From NCBI GenBank assembly GCA_900095095.1, contig FMBT01000158.1:1-64000 (forward strand): a stretch of 64,000 bases of DNA, given 5' to 3'. The translations under genes were made by a program, and so were the position numbers. The notes below the pieces were generated by a model that ran no database searches, was not told the origin of the DNA, and saw only the letters and a list, made by a program, of their open reading frames with translations. Source of the stretch: Fragilariopsis cylindrus CCMP1102. Taxonomy: Eukaryota; Bacillariophyta; Bacillariophyceae; Bacillariales; Bacillariaceae. This document shows positions 3,179 to 39,901 of this stretch, one piece after another (the stretch's first letter is position 1; the number at the start of each line of letters is the position of its first letter).

Positions 3179-5116
3179 CTATGCATTCTGTATTTTTTTT
3201 GTATCGTACAAACTCTCGATTACGTCCCAGGCCACTAAATCAGTATGTCCCCCTCTTGCTCCAGCACATCGATGCATATCTGATGAATCTCGATGACGTT
3301 GTGTTGTTGAAGAGTTGGTTATGGTGGTTTGATTTCCTCGATCCTCTAATGACTCAATAGAAAGTGGTTCGTGACACGTGCCGATGGTTTTCTTATCATC
3401 GGTACCACATTCTATTCCCATTCAATTATATATCTTCGACTATCAATAAGGTACAAATTCTGGTTGATATTACCAACAGCAGGTCATCAGCCGGATCATA
3501 TCATTATCAATTATCATTATCATCAATACGACTACTAATAGCGGTAGTATTACTCAAATCTTCATCTTTATTCTCTGCCAATAACAAACATTGCTGTCGG
3601 TAGGTATCGTAACTTGATTGGGCATCTAGTGTATAACTTTTAGAAAACATACTTACCGAAATGATGGGCCCGTTATATATTCTAGCAATGTCCACTATAT
3701 CGGGTGGTAGGATAGATTCAAAGTTAATGATTGGTGTTGATGTCAACGCTGTTGTTTGACGAGTAACTGGATCCGCAACTTGAGGTGTCTTTGTAGTCGT
3801 TGTAGATGCATTATTGTTCGAATTCAGTATTCTTGTTCCTTTATTTCCTCTTTTTTTCCTTAGAAGAATTCGTTTCGAGTAATTCGATTCTTCTTGCTGC
3901 TGCTGCTGCTGAGTTGTATCATGTCGTTTTCGGAAATCGTTATATGCTTGTTCTTCATCATTCATTGTACGTTCAAAATTTGTACCCTTCGCCTGTTTGT
4001 AGGTTGTAAATTTGCCAAAAATAATTGCATCTATATCTTTTAACAACAAACCAGTACCACGTCCAGTAGATCGTTGCGAAGTGGTAGATGATGATGATGA
4101 TGATGATGATGGATATAATGAATTCAGATAGAATTCTTCCAGTAGTTCCATCCATTCTTTACTGTATAGTACCACTTGATTAGTAACAGATATCCATCGT
4201 GCGTTGTTTGAAAATTCTAAAAAGAAACTTTCGATATTATTATTATTATTATTATCACCATCATCCTCGGTAGTATTAGCAGTATTATTATCTCTTATTG
4301 ATGGAAGGTAATGAATACTTTTAATTGATGTGCATATTGACATGCGATCGTCTTCGAGATTTGTCGAAGATGCGAATTACCAATAGCTAAAATAGTCATA
4401 TTGTCATCAAGAGGGAATTCTCTCTTTCCCCACAACATATTACTATTATTATTATTATTATAAGATGGTACTACTAATGCCGAGCATTGGTCTCCTTCTT
4501 CTGTACGTTTACAGTAAACAGTATTCTTACTATAAGCCGATGACGAGTTGTTGTATTTGTAGTTTCCATCTTCGTCATGACCCTTCTTCTTTTTCTTTTC
4601 ATAGGAAGAAGAAGTTATGGATCGATTATACGCAAATGAATGGAGTATATCAGCAAATTGTTCGTAGGGTTCTCCCGAACATTGATAAAGAAGAGAAAGA
4701 GACATATTTTTATCAGTATCGAGTCTCATCATGTCATCGTCAGCATCAGTGTCATTGTCATTATCAGCAAAAGTATCTATTACTTGTACATGAGAATCTC
4801 TACAAAAGTGAAAGACGTCTGTTTTTCTTATTCTGGAAGCGACGTCGACGTCGACGTCGTCATCGTTGTCTTCATCTTGATCTTCGTCATTGATAGTGGC
4901 ATTGACGACATTTTCTTTCTCAATATAACTTGTATAGTTCGTACTCGCGCTGTTGTTCGTAATATTTGGGTAGTATTTCAACTCTGTCTCATGAATGATT
5001 TCATTCTGTTCGGATCGACTTATTATCTGATAACTAGAAAACAAGACTATTGGTACCACAACACAGATGATCACAAAATTCGTACGGTAGGGTGCCTTTT
5101 TAATTTGACGAGTCAT
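3179..5116 (-). CDS. Type II membrane protein, SGNH/PC-esterase-like
   Basis: I did not recognise a named family, but the layout is that of a Golgi type II enzyme. A short basic cytosolic tail is followed by one membrane helix at residues about 13-30 (VIICVVVPIVLFSSY). A long Asn/Asp-rich lumenal stem with many NxS/T sites comes next. Then there is a GNSH block (AIGNSHLRQ) and, near the C-terminus, a DMHRC...GGHTDLVAWD block. These resemble the Ser and Asp-x-x-His blocks of SGNH/TBL-type acyl esterases. Exon 1 is 5116-4319. A 53-nt intron (4318-4266, with a CTAAT branch-like box) restores the frame into exon 2 from 4265. A strong GTAAGT donor at 3656 (exon ending 3657) pairs with an AG at 3594 as a 63-nt in-frame intron. 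The last part, 3506-3179, is reached only by assuming single-base losses near 3500-3410. Confidence 0.5.
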
Positions 5117-7037: not shown

Positions 7038-7539
7038 AGAAACTTATGCGTATATATATATATATATATTACCAATCAATAATACGTACTATAGTTATTT
7101 AATGATTTGATGATACAATGATTCGATGAATAAATAACTCAAAGCAACTCTTACGAGGGGAATTTTAGTCGATATCGAATGCTTCGTAAATATTATCTTC
7201 ATAATTCACATTTTTCGGGTCGGATAGGGTGCATACGAACCTAGTTACGGTATTGGATCATTTGAGAAGTTCAATTTTTGGTTTATAGGTACTACCGGTA
7301 GGTATATACGATACCATTTTCGTAAAAATCTTTATGTCCACAGTATAATATCGAACATAACTTCTACTGAACGTGTACTACTACTACATTATTTATGTTT
7401 CTGTAAACCATTTTAAAAAAAAGTTACTAAGACACTAAATAGCATTTATGTTATGATCCTGCACTACTACTACGTATCCTCTTATGATAGGATATATGTA
7501 TATAACTGCTTAGTACTACATGTATGTATGTTCCTAGCT
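7038..7539. other. Intergenic, AT-rich
   Basis: AT-rich sequence with a short TA dinucleotide run near 7055. No reading frame or structure that I can support. Confidence 0.45.
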
Positions 7540-10703: not shown

Positions 10704-12101
10704 TTAAGTCACAACAAAATGACCAGCATCAGCAGCATCGGCAGTAACATGATCAACTTCATCAAAGAAGTAAAAATTCTCATCGTCAAATTCATCGAAC
10801 TCCTTGTCCATTTCAAATGGTTTCACACGACATTCAATGGGAAATTCTAAAGGACCAGTGTTGACAACTCGTAACACATTCGTCAATACTTTATCCGGTA
10901 ATTCCAGTACACAAAAAAATGGTCGTGACTTACCATCTTCTGTTGTTAGTTCTATCACCTGTTTGACGTTATTGGGTCCCTCTAAGATTTCAATTCGTGC
11001 ATTAATTGGATTATTCTCACTAGTTATCAATATTTGTACTCGTCCAATAGACGCTTCAAACGGGACAACATATGTTGCACCATCACCCTGAACAGTCTTA
11101 GGTTTTGCTGTATCCCAAAGTCTTTGTAGTGTATGCTTTGCTAGATGATTTCCATAACCAGGACCGAAACTTCCAAGGTCGTTCGATCCAGAATTTTGTA
11201 TGTCAGCTTCCACGCATGCTCTAAGAGGGAATTCCATATTAGCCGAATTCTTTACAGCAATAGCAGTTGGACCAGCATACGGCGTTGCAACAAATGCACT
11301 GAATGGTCGTTTTTCGCCATCTTCTGTATACACCGAAATCTTTTGCGGGGAATTCTCCCCCTGCCACAATTCGATATCTGCTTTTAATGGACGTCCATTT
11401 GTTCTACATAAAACTTGTACAGCCTCGATCCTTTCAGAATTTAAGTTCCATGTTTTGAGACTACCACCTTGAACGAGTGCGGGAGCATCCGTTTCCCAAA
11501 TATCACGAACTTTGTGAGTAACGGCAGGTTGAAAAGTCTGAGAAGTTGCCATTGCGATAGCACTAGTTGTAGCCGGTCGTGGTACAGGAGCAACGACTGT
11601 GGGGACAAAAACTTCTGTAGTGTCATCCCATTCATAAGGATTGGCGATGACTGGTGGTTCTGGAAAGGCATTATAATTAACAGGAGGTGCTGGAAAATCA
11701 TAATCTACATCATCATCGAAATACAATTCAGTGGGATACTCTTCTACCTCTTGTTGTTGAATTGGCATTGGAAGTGGGGTAGCTGGAGATGGAATCGTCG
11801 AAGATGCAAATGGAAATGGTTGTTGTGGCGGTTCAAATGTTGTTGCTCTTGCATTCTCTTCTCCACCACCGGTGTTGTCTGCTAAGTATGAAAAAGAGTG
11901 AAGAATTAATACTTCTGATGAGCGTCTACGATCGATAATACTATTACTACTAATACCATTACAACCACCCCTCGAATTCTCCGGCGGCTTTAGAATAAAT
12001 GCAGTGGCAGTCCTATCGCCAAGAAATAAAATCCCATCAAGCGGTGTCGAAGAAAACAGAACCAACAAAAGAAGTGCAGAATTTCTAGTTGTGGTGTTCA
12101 T
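10704..12101 (-). CDS. Plastid-targeted two-repeat beta-domain protein, unknown function
   Basis: This is a 465-residue open frame. The N-terminus is a signal peptide (NSALLLLVLFSSTPL) followed by TATAF, the diatom plastid-import cleavage motif, with Phe as the first transit residue. A proline-rich linker comes next. The C-terminal half holds two copies of one roughly 110-residue beta-rich domain. Copy 1 is near residues 205-290 (WETDAPALVQGG ... TEDGEKRPFSAFV) and copy 2 near 335-425 (WDTAKPKTVQGD ... TEDGKSRPFFCVL). The shared core is WxT..P..VQG ... IE(L/I).(Q/E)G.N. ... TEDGxxRPF. I do not recognise a named family. An acidic tail ends the protein. Expected location: plastid stroma or its surrounding compartments. 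Confidence 0.7.
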   Translation of the reverse strand: MNTTTRNSALLLLVLFSSTPLDGILFLGDRTATAFILKPPENSRGGCNGISSNSIIDRRRSSEVLILHSFSYLADNTGGGEENARATTFEPPQQPFPFASSTIPSPATPLPMPIQQQEVEEYPTELYFDDDVDYDFPAPPVNYNAFPEPPVIANPYEWDDTTEVFVPTVVAPVPRPATTSAIAMATSQTFQPAVTHKVRDIWETDAPALVQGGSLKTWNLNSERIEAVQVLCRTNGRPLKADIELWQGENSPQKISVYTEDGEKRPFSAFVATPYAGPTAIAVKNSANMEFPLRACVEADIQNSGSNDLGSFGPGYGNHLAKHTLQRLWDTAKPKTVQGDGATYVVPFEASIGRVQILITSENNPINARIEILEGPNNVKQVIELTTEDGKSRPFFCVLELPDKVLTNVLRVVNTGPLEFPIECRVKPFEMDKEFDEFDDENFYFFDEVDHVTADAADAGHFVVT

Positions 12102-23039: not shown

Positions 23040-24751
23040 ATGAAGATCATCCTCCCAAGTATCGTTATTTCTGTAGCTCTCACTGCTACCACCACTGCTG
23101 CTTATAGCACCTTCGGATCTACCTATGTTGTCACTGAAAGTAGTGGTGTTACTGCCACTACTATGCGTTATCTTAAGAGCGGAAAGGATTCCAGGAATGT
23201 ATCTAAGGACTCGAATATTTCCAAGCTTGGGAAATCCGACAAGCAATCCAGGAAGTTTATCATCGATCCTCAGGATGAAATTGACGACGACGACGACGAC
23301 GACGATGGCATCGACATTCTTCTGCCGCACTTTTACATGCCACCAATGTCACCCAGTTCGCATCCCGTGACTTTGGGAACTTCCTCGCCTACTACCTCCA
23401 TGACCGAACAGTTTCACGAAACTCTCGCACCCAAGTCTGTCAAGAGTAAATCGACAAGGAAAAAGGACGTTGGTAGTGAACCCAAGTCGATGAAGAGCAA
23501 ATCGAAATCAATGAAGAAGGAGACTTCCTCGCCAACTACCTCCGCGACCGAACACTTTCACAAAACTCTCGAACCCAAGTCTACCAGGAGTAAATCGACC
23601 AAGAAAAATGACGTTGACAGTAAACCCAAGTCGATGAAGAGCAAGTCGAAATCGGCGACAAAGGACGAGGACGAACCTAAGTCGTTGAAGAGCAAATCGA
23701 AATCGAAATTAACGAAGGACGATATTGAGCCCAGAAGTAAAAGCAAATCTGTCAAATCGAAGGATGAGAAGTCTGAAAATGGTTTAAGTAAAAAGAGCAA
23801 AAAGTCTAAAAAGAATTCGGAGGCACCTAGCGGCCAACCTAGTATGAAAGCTTCGAAAACTCCTTCGTCAGGACCTTCCGGTGTTCCCAGCGAAGGTCCA
23901 TCTGCCAATCCATCTACCAGTCCATCTGTCAGTCCATCTGCTAGTCCATCTGCCAGTCCGTCTGCCAGTCCGTCTACCAGTCCAAGTGGAGCTCCCAGTC
24001 TTGAACCAAGTGCTACTCCTAGCTCTCATCCGAGTCTTGGTCCGAGTGGTGCGCCTAGTTCCATCCCGAGTGCCGTTCCTAGTTTGGAACCGAGTACTAC
24101 ACCCAGTAATGTACCCAGTTCCATTCCAAGTCTCAAGCCAAGTCTTTCACCTAGCGCAGCGCCAAGTCTTCCACCGAGTGGTGCACCAAGTGATGTTCCC
24201 AGTTTCGATCCGAGTGGTACACCAAGTTCCATCCCGAGTTCTGCTCCTAGCTCGGAACCAAGCTCATTGCCAAGTATTGTACCTAGCTCTAGTCCATCCT
24301 CAGCCCCTTCAACGGCACCCAGTGAGGCTCCATCTACAATGCCGAGCGGAATTCCGTCCTCGGAACCGAGTACGTTGCCCAGTTCTGTACCTAGTTATTC
24401 TCCGTCATTGAGACCCTCCAGTGGACCATCGTCGATTCCTTCTGTTGAGCCTAGTACGATCCCATCTATTAGTCCAACCATTGTGATCAGTCAAAGTGGT
24501 GCTGCGGCAAGCGCAGGATTGATTGGAGCTGCCATGGCTGTATTAGCGCTACTCATTGGAGGGGTTTTATGTTCCAATTCGGGAGAAGAAATGACAGGGA
24601 GGAGTTCGATGACGATGATGATATCGATGTGGATACTGATTCCCTTCCTATTGATGGAGCAGATGACGACGGCGCTCCAGCGTTCGGTGTCCCTTGCTTC
24701 AATTGGGGAGGGCTTGATCGTGGTCACAGAATGAAGGGCGAAGTCATATAA
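23040..24751 (+). CDS. Silaffin-like secreted protein with Pro-Ser-x-x repeat and membrane anchor
   Basis: An N-terminal signal peptide (residues about 1-21, ending TTTAA) leads to an acidic patch. Two related blocks of PTTS(M/A)TE(Q/H)FH(E/K)TL(A/E)PKS followed by Lys/Ser clusters (KSKSMK, KSMKSKSKS) come next. A long proline-serine array (PSxxPS, roughly residues 270-480) leads to one membrane helix (GLIGAAMAVLALLIGGV). The Lys/Ser clusters resemble the silica-targeting lysine clusters of silaffins. Pro-Ser-x-x arrays are common in diatom wall or surface proteins. As written, the frame ends at 24734 with an odd Met-rich tail. One T added in the T-run near 24566 switches to an acidic tail (REEFDDDDDIDVDTD ... 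GEVI) ending at 24751, which is far more natural for a cytosolic tail. Confidence 0.75.
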
Positions 24752-34207: not shown

Positions 34208-34455
34208 ATTCTTGTTCTTTTTTTGAACCTCGCCCTTCTTGTTTGTTAAAATGAACGAAGAGGTGCCTATTTTTATTTCGCACGCTTTACGTCTTCGGAT
34301 GAAAGATTTGTAAAATATAGGCTAGAAGTTATTTTAAAGAACAAGCTAGAAGTTATTATCTTCGATTTGTCTGCTCTTGCATGTCGCCAATGAATTTGTA
34401 ATAATGATAGGAGATAGATAACAGGATAACTTAATGCGTCAGCTTTGGTGTTAGG

Positions 34456-34478
34456 CTAGCGCGAGAAAAAACCTGTCC
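34456..34478 (+). repeat. Left terminal inverted repeat
   Basis: The left 23-bp terminus of the 5.1 kb element. It is identical in reverse complement to 39544-39566 and is followed directly by the palindromic GGACAGGTTGTCC. Confidence 0.85.
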
Positions 34479-34729
34479 GGACAGGTTGTCCGTACGTCAA
34501 CCGTTTTTAGGTGCAAATTACTAGTAAATGTACGCGAATAATAAAATAAGATAGTAATAACAAGCTCTTCTTATGCAAAAACATACAGAAAACACAGATA
34601 TACCATTATACTCCATATACATAGAAAGATAATACATACTTAAGACTACAACAGATTGACATCTAACTACTATTACTAATACTTCGATATATTATTTATT
34701 ATAACAATATGTATTAGACAACTACATGT

Positions 34730-35035
34730 AGGTGCACACATAATATAACCATTATATATATGTATACACATTGAAATATACATGGACATATACATGTGCA
34801 TATGCATGATACTTACATGTATACATATGCGAGATAGATAGTGTCTAGTAGCATGTAATAATATGTGTGATGAGCATAGTATCGGTAGTTAGCGTGGTAT
34901 GATGTGCATGCAACATGCCTCCACCCTACTAGTTATATATAGTACATAGTATATATTATAGTAGGACTATATATACATATACATATACATATATGTTATA
35001 CATATACATATACATATACATATGTTCAGTCAGCA
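34730..35035. repeat. AT-rich ATACAT-type microsatellite region
   Basis: There are many TATACA/ATACAT units, densest at 34970-35035. It lies inside the 5.1 kb element, upstream of its gene. Confidence 0.7.
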
Positions 35036-35442
35036 CATATATCAATGGACAGAATACGCACACGGACGCGTAGTATGCATGAGGTACGAACATCCCATTT
35101 TATGATGATAGGGGCACATAACATCATAGTACAGTAGTATATATACTATGGGATTTGAATGAGGAGGGAAGGGTGTGGTGGGCTTTTCCCTTTGAGGGAC
35201 TAATACCTGCCTACTTGAGAATCTCATTCAAAACTGAGAGGGAAGACAGGCGGCCTTGGATGTTAATCACACATTCTAGTTTTTAGTCTAACTAAAAAAT
35301 TCTATTTGGGTGGGAACTCTCAGCATTCTTTCTGACTCAGCAACTCTGAGGTAAAACAAAACAAATTGCCTCATTGTTCAATTGTTCATCAAACTTTCCT
35401 ACACACTTCTTCTCTCATAAATTCCATTACTGATACAACAAA

Positions 35443-38400
35443 ATGGCTACCATCAAAGAACCAACATCCAACAACCCTCTACATGCTGCCTTATCTCTTC
35501 TTGATGCTGCAGCATATTGTGATGATGCATCTGTTGCAGTAGAGGAGATAAAAGTGATTTTAAAGGATAACTTTGCTTCTACCCAGGCTATTAGAAAAAT
35601 TCATTCTATCTTGATTCTTCTTTCAAAGGCACTACCATTGATTTCTAACTCTGTGAAAGGACAAGTAGCTTCATGTGCTCCTCCAAACAGCAATCCATCT
35701 TATGCTAGGTCAAGACTACAAACTGACTCTAGCTCCACAGCTTCAGAATTAGTAGGTATACCAAAACTAGAATTGCTAGTCAAAGAATCTTCTGCTAATG
35801 TTAAGTCCTCACCAACACGATGTCAGCAAAAAAGAAAAAGGTCACCAGCAACCATCTCACCAGACAAGACAATTGTACCACCTGATTATCCAACACCAAA
35901 TAACCACAACTACTTTCTGATCAAAGAGGCTGTTGTTGCTTATAAAACTTATCCTCAGAAGAAACAGAGGATGAGTATGCTGAAACATTGGGAGAAGAAA
36001 GGTTGGGTACCAGAGTATAAAGGTGGTGAAAGGTCATGGAATAGAATGGCACACTCACTGTCCTTAGGAAATCAGCTCAGAGAGTGGAAGATAGACAAGG
36101 ACCAAAAAATATCAAAAACAACAGGTGGAAGAAGTCCTTTGGTCAGTGTTGTACAAGCACAAAGATATCTACAGGAGTCTCCACAAGGATCTACATTAGG
36201 TGCAGATGAAATCAATGATATGATACAGAAGGCAACCAGGCAACAGGATCTTCAAAATGGAATACATCACAATCCTGCTGCTAATTCACACTCCTATAGA
36301 ACAACAAAAAACTACAAGTCATTACTGGCTACCTTAAAGTCAACTACTATTACACAACGAGCCGTAGACAAAACAGAAGTAAGAGAGATAGCTGAGAAAT
36401 CTATTCGTTCAACAATCTCATTTATGATGATGACTGCTGTTACATTATTTCAGATAGGAGATATGCAAGCAGGTAGACCATCCTTAAATAAAGCAACAGC
36501 TGGTGCTAAAACATTCGAGCGACTTGTATCACAGGCAAATAATGACCTCCCAGTGCGACCATTGCAATCAAATAATATACATTCTACCGATGATAGTGGA
36601 GTTTATTTTGTATCTGGTGTTAATAATAAGAAAGAATGTGAATGGAGAATTGCCAAAGATGAAGGTGAAAATAATGATGTCAAATCAGTTTACAAGACAA
36701 CAAAACAATCAATGTTGTTTGGTCAAAGAGCAAGATTTACCTGGAGTACCAGCTTCAGAAGAAGATAGATCTGTTAGCTGTTCAGATGGTGGGGGGGCTC
36801 AGCTGACAACCCTGTTGGAGGAAGACTCTCTGGTGGCGGCTGATAATTTACTACTTACATTGTGCAAACATTCAGCAAGTAGAAGTGGTGCTGAACAATA
36901 CTTAGATCTAGCAAAAATCTTCAAGAATGTACATCGCATTGTAAAAACTTTAACCGCAAAGAGCAGACCATGTAAGGGATTCAAGAAAAAGATCTACGAT
37001 GCCATGATGGAACTCGATAAAAAGGGTGATATCAAATTCAGCCGAGACAAACTGCATTGCATCATTGATTTCATTGTATGTTTACCTGAACTTCTGTTTA
37101 GGAGTGTAACACCAAGTGGAGTGATTCAAGGATTTGTAGAAGGGGGTGCTGTTGATAGGGAAAGCGAAACATGGCCCGACTTTGACAAAATCATTGGAAC
37201 TTGCAGACGTCCAGTAGCAGTGACAGAAGTAGAACTTATCAAAACCCATTTCAATACCTTATATGATGCATTTGTAAGTCACGGAAAAATACCGGAGGAA
37301 CTTTTTGATGAGCTTGGCTTTTCTGAGGATGAGGATAGAAAAGGTAAAGTAAGACCAAGACGATCCTTGGCGATTGTACATGGGAGAGCAATGTGTTATT
37401 CTTCAGAACCAATCAGACTTGCACGCAATCTGAAACTACAACAACAAGGCGAGATAGCAAGGATAAAGAAAGTAGACAAAGATAACAAAGTCAAGACTTT
37501 ACTTACTGATAATGCATCATGTGAATCAAAACTTCCTGCTGATTTGTTGACTGCCACTTTTGATAATTTCTTTACCTGTAAAGCTCCAACACTAAAAGCT
37601 TTTGTACATTGCAGACTATTTACAACACCCTCCAGACCAGCTGATGCTGAATGGAATGGCATTAAGTTTAAGGACGTCAAAAAGGGCACAATAATTTCGG
37701 CTGAAGCTGGCGAAGACACCACCCTGGTACGTGCAATGAAAGTAAAACACATGCCTGTGATTCTGAGGTCTATAGAAGCCAATACAGAACAACAAGATCC
37801 GTTGACAGTTGTTGGTGTTCGTCCTACCGTACTGGGAACTATATGTACAGCAACTGTCCCTTATCATCAACCGTCAGTAAAATCCTTGTCAGAAAAGAAG
37901 AATGGATAGCAGCAGTCAGAAATGAAGTGTGTGGTGTAAGGTACGCTGCTGATATAACAATTGAACTGGTTCAACAGGCAGAAAGATTGGCAACCCATTT
38001 GGAAGTAAGAATGGACGTTCACCTAAAAAGAATCCCAGATCCTATGTACTGGGTTCATTGGTGTTTTAGATGGGCCAGAAAACAGTTTACGAAGGTCTCT
38101 CTTATTAGTTGCTTGGCATGCCATATCAAGAAAGATCTTTCTGCTGTTCGAGTGACAGAATCATTGCTATCAGTATCTATCCATGGATTTCATGTCATTG
38201 CACCAGATTCAATTTTGGAAGGCTGTTATTTGTTTTATGATAACCAGAGGGGTTGCTTTGTACGCAGTGGTAAAGCTTCACCCACCGTAATGCATGAAAG
38301 AATTAAATTTCATGAAAAGGAAGCAAAAAGAAGCAGCAAAGGGTCATATGGTAAATATCCTCATAAATCAAATCCAAATATTTCAGAAGGATCCCGTATT

Positions 38401-38679
38401 GGGTATTTTGACCATCTATCATCGTTTTGTGGCTTAGGTTTTGATAGATCAAATACAGAACGTCTGGTAGATACATCTGGTAATGGTATATTGGATTGGG
38501 ATGATATTACTTTGGATGCTATCAAAAAATGGAAAGTTACTGGAACAGAAAAAGACAAACGTCTTATGTTAGTTGCATATTTATTTGAGCTCGTATATGA
38601 TCTCATGTTGTCGTCACATGATTGTGTGTCATTGAATCCAGGATTTGAATCATGCCATGGGTTCTACGGACAAGATTAA
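35443..38679 (+). CDS. Large unrecognised protein of the 5.1 kb element
   Basis: Three long + frames follow each other: 35443-36768, about 36715-37909 and about 37860-38679. Together they make one protein of roughly 1,080 residues. A one-base loss in the AAAA run near 37883 explains the second switch. The first, near 36715, needs a gain of one or loss of two. An N-terminal region (residues about 150-215) looks like a helix-turn-helix DNA-binding segment: IKEAVVAYKTYPQKKQRMSM, HWEKKGWVPEYKGG. The middle is Lys-rich and helical. The C-terminal third contains conserved-looking blocks such as VHWCFRWARKQF, GFHVIAPDSILEGCYLFYD and GYFDHLSSFCGLGFDR. I see no convincing DDE, tyrosine-recombinase, reverse-transcriptase or helicase motif. 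By position it is the element's own transposase or an accessory protein. Confidence 0.6.
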
Positions 38680-38760
38680 CATTTAACAATACAAATAATA
38701 TATATATTTAATTCATTTTTATGACATACCTTTGGTTGATTGTTGAATTGTGATATGTTG

Positions 38761-39420
38761 ACGGACTTAGAACCAGAAAATGAGAGCTTCAGTAGTATTT
38801 GAGATTGTTGTTCGAATGAAAGTGGTTTCGATTGTATTCATTCATTGGAAGTGGTCTAAAATTGAGCCACCATGATCAATGACTAATCTGCTTCACCAAC
38901 AGTCCCTGCTTAGGAATAAATAATATTTTGGCTTCAAAAATAGGACTTTGAACCAGAAGAGGAGCGCAACTGTAGTAGTTGAGTTGCTTGTTCGAATGAA
39001 AGTGGTTTCGTTTATATTCATTCATTGGAAGTGGTCTAAAATTGAGCCACCATGGTCAATGAATGATCTGCTTCACCAGCAGTCCCTGCTTAGTGATAAA
39101 TAATATTTTGGCATCAAAAATAGGACTTTGAACCAGAAGAGGAGCGCAACTGTAGTGGTTGAGTTGCTTGTTCGAATGAAAGTGGTTTCGTTTATATTCA
39201 TTCATTGGAAGTGGTCTGAAATTGAGCCACCATGGTCAATGACTGATCTGCTTCACCAACAGTCCCTGCTTAGTAATAAATAATATTTTGGCTTCAAAAA
39301 GAGGACTTTGAACCAGAAAATGATAGCAACAGTAGTAGTTGAGTAGCTTGTTCGAACGAAAGTAGTTTTGTTTATATTCATTCATTGGAAGTAGTCTAAA
39401 ATTGATTCACCATGGTCAAA
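38761..39420. repeat. 180-bp tandem array, about 3.7 copies
   Basis: Copies start at 38761, 38941, 39121 and 39301, exactly 180 bp apart. Copies 2 and 3 are almost identical; copies 1 and 4 are more divergent, and copy 4 is cut at about 39420. Each holds the near-palindrome ATTGAGCCACCATGGTCAAT. The array lies between the gene and the right terminus of the 5.1 kb element. Confidence 0.92.
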
Positions 39421-39543
39421 TCCATTAGGAAGTAATGTAATAAAATATAATAAGATTTAGCAAAGCAAAAAAAAGGGTGGTTGGGTGATTGATAACTTTT
39501 TTGAGGTGCGCGATCGTCACTTTTTTGGGACAGGTTTTTCCGA

Positions 39544-39566
39544 GGACAGGTTTTTTCTCGCGCTAG
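39544..39566 (-). repeat. Right terminal inverted repeat
   Basis: The right 23-bp terminus of the 5.1 kb element, the reverse complement of 34456-34478. An additional GGACAGGTTTTTC copy lies just inside at 39528-39540. Confidence 0.85.
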
Positions 39567-39901
39567 TAGGCCTGAACTAATACTGCAGTACAATTGTACT
39601 GAACATTGTATTAGTCCTAGTCCTACGTCATACGTAGGACGTATTTTATGCTCTAGGACTATTGTACATAATATCACACATACATGATGTACGACTATTG
39701 GCTCTTTCAGGTCGCGCGCCACTACATTTTACGACTTGATTTGCGAATACGGTACTGTATGGTTGGAGTTAATCGAAAAGATATTTTTCCGCGAAGCATT
39801 TTTTTCTTTCTCAAAAAGTTTATGCTTTATTTATTTTATTACACAGCAGTATAATACATCATCATTCATCCAACATGTTGTACTGATGTAATAGTATAAA
39901 T

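Follow-up and report, generated by a model that had tools for sequence, protein, structure and literature searches.

A terminal-inverted-repeat transposon family with a candidate DDD transposase in the diatom Fragilariopsis cylindrus

Among described DNA transposons, Sola elements are, by description, among the closest to the family reported here. One listing credits them with a transposase of the three-aspartate (DDD) type, a 4-bp target-site duplication (TSD), a length of mostly 2–9 kb and variable termini (PMC10741241), and they have been recorded in the diatom Cyclotella cryptica (PMC7466962) and in Ectocarpus (PMC12477816); in the Sola2 cases that one report describes, the duplications are AT-rich (PMC3627910). 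The same listing gives Tc1/mariner elements a constant TA duplication (PMC10741241; see also PMC7325037) and Ginger elements duplications of 4–6 bp, terminal inverted repeats (TIRs) of 40–270 bp, TG...CA ends and a Gypsy-like integrase. We analysed a stretch of 64,000 nucleotides from Fragilariopsis cylindrus CCMP1102 (contig FMBT01000158.1, positions 1 to 64,000 of the forward strand; hereafter the window), in which an earlier, sequence-only reading had proposed a transposon-like element at positions 34456–39566. We assign this 5,111-bp insertion, with good though not full confidence, to the class II cut-and-paste TIR transposons, with an intact form that encodes a transposase of ~1,100–1,200 aa, probably built around a DDD core of the RNase H type. 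It belongs to a precisely bounded and recently active diatom family that includes an empty allele, an internally deleted copy and miniature copies; a distant relative that is intact elsewhere in the genome is a candidate for testing as a working transposase.

The boundaries of the insertion and its 4-bp duplication are fixed by an empty site in the same genome. Using the right flank as a query, we found a second contig, C253, with a 95% identical match. This contig reads from the left flank into the right flank uninterrupted (98.6% and 95.0% identical, respectively), with a single TAGG and without the element, and the insertion is therefore polymorphic between the two contigs, which look like haplotypes. 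The absence of the element from this near-identical contig bears out the proposal that the insertion is recent. In the window copy the TAGG is present at both edges, at 34452–34455 and 39567–39570, as had been read from the sequence. The 23-bp TIRs are likewise perfect, at 34456–34478 (plus strand, beginning CTAGCGCG) and 39544–39566 (minus strand). With at most three mismatches allowed, the 67.9-Mb genome contains 12 occurrences of the 23-bp end and none of the reversed pattern, so the end is not a product of chance. The subterminal CCTGTCC repeats claimed for the element are present, with four CCTGTCC/GGACAGG sites inside its ends and two elsewhere in the window. The heptamer itself is unenriched (6 observed against 3.71 expected, with at least 6 in 11 of 100 shuffles), and only its placement is telling. 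At the left end, two abutting inverted 9-bp sites, AACCTGTCC and GGACAGGTT, form an 18-bp palindrome (34470–34487); at the right end, two GGACAGG sites 16 bp apart form a direct repeat on the minus strand (39528–39550).

Other copies in the genome agree with these boundaries. The search with the 23-bp end recovered five two-ended copies that have this end in common, namely the window copy, a 3,840-bp copy on contig C464 and three short copies of 611, 612 and 613 bp on C149, C324 and C367, together with four further end fragments (contigs C297, C566, C46 and C83). All five two-ended copies are flanked by 4-bp duplications: TAGG in the window and at C464, CACA at C149, CAGT at C324 and TTCG at C367. 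The earlier description of a bounded mobile element thus holds against both the other copies and the empty allele. Over the 3,775 positions aligned without gaps, the C464 and window copies agree at 3,741; a deletion of 1,281 bp, with CTGTTG at both breakpoints, has removed from C464 the sequence corresponding to 35531–36811 of the window. The short copies resemble miniature inverted-repeat transposable elements: they are 84–96% alike and match the long copies only over ~75 bp on the left and 45–57 bp on the right. Of the five copies, alleles were sought for three, those of the window, C464 and C324. No second allele of the C464 copy was found in the genome. The C324 copy is absent from an allele on C364, where the junction consists of one CAGT followed by six extra bases (the palindromic ACCGGT) that are missing from the filled allele. 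An excision footprint is a doubtful origin for this junction, CAGT plus six bases being unlike two copies of the duplication. An octamer, TACCGGTA, adjoins the C464 insertion and also occurs at window positions 7293, 41830 and 59168 (3 against 0.46 expected; at least 3 in 2 of 100 shuffles).

Elsewhere in the genome, a distant relative of the window element's protein is encoded intact. This relative lies on contig C206, in an element of 4,901 bp with perfect ends beginning CTACGCGCG, an AAAT duplication and an intact open reading frame (ORF) of 1,191 aa, the sole ORF of at least 250 aa in that element. In tblastn, the C206 and window proteins match over two stretches, with 21% identity over 254 aa (E 1e-12) and 25% over 212 aa (E 8e-12), and for each part none of 200 shuffles reached the score. 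The C206 element is inserted within a short TIR element, and both of the unoccupied copies of the latter that we inspected (C299 and C311) carry one AAAT. Broken copies of the C206 element are found on C163 and C44; they are 97.9% identical over 4,461 bp, both lack residues 357–512 of the C206 protein, and they have the appearance of a single locus represented by two contigs. At the C44 locus, exact matching of the end motifs detected just one of the two ends. The ratio of non-synonymous to synonymous substitution rates between C206 and C44 is 0.37 over 354 codons and 0.25 over 662 codons, and therefore the C206 protein has been under purifying constraint. The C44 gene (L036) is 97% identical to that of C206 (L034) in its 3' part and 83% in its 5' part, and is perhaps a mosaic resulting from recombination or gene conversion. 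The short host element around C206 (L034:2442-7539) has inverted repeats of ~24 bp, TACAGTA..CGCTCGATAAGAAAT; a flank query that covers part of it gave 78 genome matches, 76 of them within its first ~174 bases, and contig C678 matches the flank query only from query base 159 onward.

The coding region of the window copy is broken. The sequence-only reading had described a single coding region of ~1,080 residues, which does not stand: positions 35443–38679 hold three overlapping ORFs in two frames, of 441, 468 and 278 aa, with the frame broken near 36.72–36.77 kb and again near 37.89 kb. In the C464 copy the reading frame continues across the second break, and the region of the first is deleted. 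All three ORFs lie on the plus strand. ORF1 (35443–36768, 441 aa) is the N-terminal part of the broken transposase; it aligns best, and collinearly, with C206 residues ~220–394, but the score is equalled or exceeded by 18 of 200 shuffles and so is not significant. The relevant part of ORF2, in the shifted frame, spans 36740–37909 (the mechanically called ORF being 36503–37909) and matches the C206 protein at E 1e-12, with a score of 147, where shuffles attain at most 60 (0/200). ORF3 (37843–38679, 278 aa) is the C-terminal part and matches at E 8e-12, with a score of 141, the best of the shuffles scoring 57 (0/200). Between the first and second candidate catalytic aspartates the window protein has ~64 residues and the C206 protein 161, i.e. 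~97 more, and ~100 residues of the catalytic part have apparently been lost from the window copy by internal deletion. With a broken gene that has apparently also lost internal sequence, the window copy is non-autonomous, and the term 'complete', under which it had been described, fits its ends only. Searching the genome with ORF1 returned the window family only (2 matches at E<=1), and with ORF2 the window, C464 and the distant loci C206 and C163; no intact coding copy of the window family was seen in the assembly in these searches.

The two families have a common anatomy. TIRs and a duplication of constant length, as in cut-and-paste DNA transposons, are present in all six two-ended elements (TAGG, TAGG, CACA, CAGT, TTCG and AAAT), and the empty sites agree. 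The ends of both families are of a CTA type, with TIRs of 23–24 bp. One end carries two abutting inverted 9-bp sites, AACCTGTCC/GGACAGGTT in the window family and AACTGGGAA/TTCCCAGTT in the C206 family, and the other carries two direct sites, 16 bp apart in the former and 17 bp in the latter. Downstream of the stop codon, before the nearer end, each family also carries a tandem array. In the window copy this array occupies 38763–39419, with 3.7 copies of a 180-bp unit in a region that is ungapped in the C464 copy; in C206 it comprises 2.6 copies of a 193-bp unit. Homology of the two arrays was ruled out, the best match being 11 bp (E 0.22). The array had been called private to the element, which is true of its sequence within the window family but not of its presence, as an array of unrelated sequence occupies the equivalent position in the C206 family.

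A DDD core of the RNase H type is likely, on suggestive evidence from the protein sequences. In the C206 protein the candidate catalytic residues are D383 (in NYDF), D545 (HVDSD) and D585 (QPMD), the last lying in QPxD, the motif that served as the cutting point for this genome's DDE_1 proteins. In the window protein, aspartates align with the second and third candidates (codons 36785–36787 and 36905–36907, in ORF2), and 39 residues separate the two in both proteins; the candidate first aspartate is encoded at 36589–36591, in ORF1. Hidden Markov models (HMMs) of DDE_1 were built from five Pfam matches (C297, C354, C307, C379 and C690) and the relative of C307 on C769, leaving out C679, C363 and C531, and the best similarity of C206 to them lies at the QPMD stretch.

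Several observations weigh against this reading. The first aspartate of the window protein is placed by the non-significant alignment of ORF1, and the third candidate is an asparagine in the broken C163 copy (QPMN). The DDE_1 HMMs rank C206 only near the top 0.4–0.9% of its own shuffles, with 17 of 2,000 scoring higher in the first model and 18 of 5,000 in a second one that was re-cut after the result of the first had been seen. The window ORFs are unremarkable against these models, ORF1 being unlisted in both and ORF2 ranking 825 in the first and unlisted in the re-cut one. Profile–profile comparison with a small DDE_1 alignment is not significant: with a single sequence the QPMD stretch gives E 0.12, and with two sequences a different place gives E 0.31, inside the range of 200 column shuffles. 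No DDE family model in the libraries searched matches either protein, and a structure prediction of the window ORF2, made without an alignment, is unusable (predicted local distance difference test score 34.6). The layout of the ends is also not fully conserved: relative to the gene, the two end types are placed the opposite way round in the window and C206 families, so that the gene follows a different end type in each.

For a cut-and-paste transposon of this anatomy, the transposase would bind the four subterminal sites, arranged as an inverted abutting pair at one end and as a direct pair 16–17 bp apart at the other, and would cut at the CTA-type ends. The 3' ends would then be joined to the two target strands at a 4-bp stagger, producing 4-bp duplications without a fixed sequence. 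The non-autonomous copies (window, C464 and the three of ~612 bp) would depend, or have depended, on enzyme supplied in trans by another copy, which was not found in this assembly, and the internal deletions may have arisen by interrupted repair.

Database searches agree with the original impression of a protein of no recognised family. The window protein has a single Pfam row, Sld7_C at E 0.092 and under its cut-off, and the C206 protein has none; the profile search against transposase families that had been proposed as a check returned no matching family model. Nothing was found in NCBIfam at E<=1, and PHROGs gave one chance-level row per protein (E 0.2–0.4). Searches of PDB sequences gave 3 rows (best E 1.1), 1 row (E 1.6) and 0 rows, all at chance level. 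Rfam has no match in the window, and scans of collections of viral contigs and genome contigs and a tblastn search of phages confirmed no relatives. Literature searches by general terms found no description of these elements; Repbase was outside their scope, so the family may be published.

The elements most likely constitute a new family that is otherwise ordinary in kind. The earlier suggestion of an undescribed system is not upheld, as the anatomy and the probable DDD core fit ordinary cut-and-paste transposition; Sola, with its 4-bp duplications and DDD transposase, was compared by published description only. That the elements are members of Sola (Sola1 or Sola2), unrecognised because the searched libraries hold no model that reaches them, is a serious possibility, to which we give rather less than an even chance; the mechanism would be the same and only the membership would differ. 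The listed properties fit: 4-bp duplications, TIRs, size, variable termini, a DDD transposase (here a candidate) and stramenopile hosts that include a diatom. Against Sola2 stands the composition of the duplications, which in the described cases is AT-rich, whereas five of the six found here are half G+C (TAGG twice, CACA, CAGT and TTCG) and one is AT only (AAAT). The likeness is one of descriptions. We hold it somewhat doubtful that the two families instead represent an undescribed superfamily of DDD cut-and-paste elements, defined by GC-rich ends of CTA type, 4-bp duplications, a transposase of ~1,200 aa, asymmetric end types (palindromic against direct pair) and a family-specific array of 180–190 bp behind the gene. 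If they do fall outside Sola and the other known superfamilies, they would form a new branch of the DDD transposons of eukaryotes, in which two distant families have an unusual end-site arrangement in common.

A pogo or Tc1/mariner-like (DDE_1) transposon is an unlikely source of these copies. The QPMD motif of the C206 relative, its 39-residue spacing from the preceding candidate aspartate and the weak HMM similarity at the expected place would all suit such an origin, and the families described include DD39D elements of plants, as well as PlantMar, given as coming from plants and stramenopiles only (PMC7325037). However, none of the six elements has a TA duplication, their 4-bp duplications being varied. 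Pfam DDE_1 and the other Pfam Tc1/mariner models are unmatched, and the 10 DDE_1 matches in the genome include neither family. As judged from filled sites alone, TA duplications are compatible with the ends of a DDE_1 element on C307 and of its relative on C769, to which it is 72% identical, and the contrast therefore probably holds inside one genome. These two loci (L050 and L053) are pogo-like, with open frames of 873 and 892 residues and ends TA-CAAGTTTAGG. Inverted-repeat ends were sought around four DDE_1 loci, leaving out C379, C679 and C531/C363, and a clear pair was found only at C307. On C297 (L047) the DDE_1 match lies in an open frame of 1,339 residues, and a related copy on C354 (L049) is split into several frames; neither has clear inverted-repeat ends.

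A passenger or accessory role for the gene, in an element moved by an unrelated enzyme, is very improbable. The short copies have moved without a gene, and no catalytic family was recognised, as this explanation would have it. Against it, the protein is the product of the only ORF of at least 250 aa in the C206 element, the other ORFs listed in the window element do not exceed 128 aa, and both the protein, which is under constraint, and the layout of the ends have been retained in two families that are only 21–25% alike. Ginger, with a range of duplication sizes that covers 4 bp, differs in its ends, those found here beginning with CTA and having TIRs of 23–24 bp, and no integrase family was matched. 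Kolobok and piggyBac duplicate TTAA, which is not among the six duplications, and Crypton and Helitron do not have TIRs with a staggered-cut target duplication, unlike the perfect TIRs and 4-bp duplications of the present elements.

Two further coding regions were noted elsewhere in the window. The ORF at 10704–12101 matches the Pfam family of diatom pyrenoid shell proteins (E 1.5e-75), in keeping with the diatom origin of the DNA. At 23040–24734, an ORF of 564 aa with internal tandem repeats (periods of 144, 12, 36 and 24 bp) matches the PT disordered repeat.

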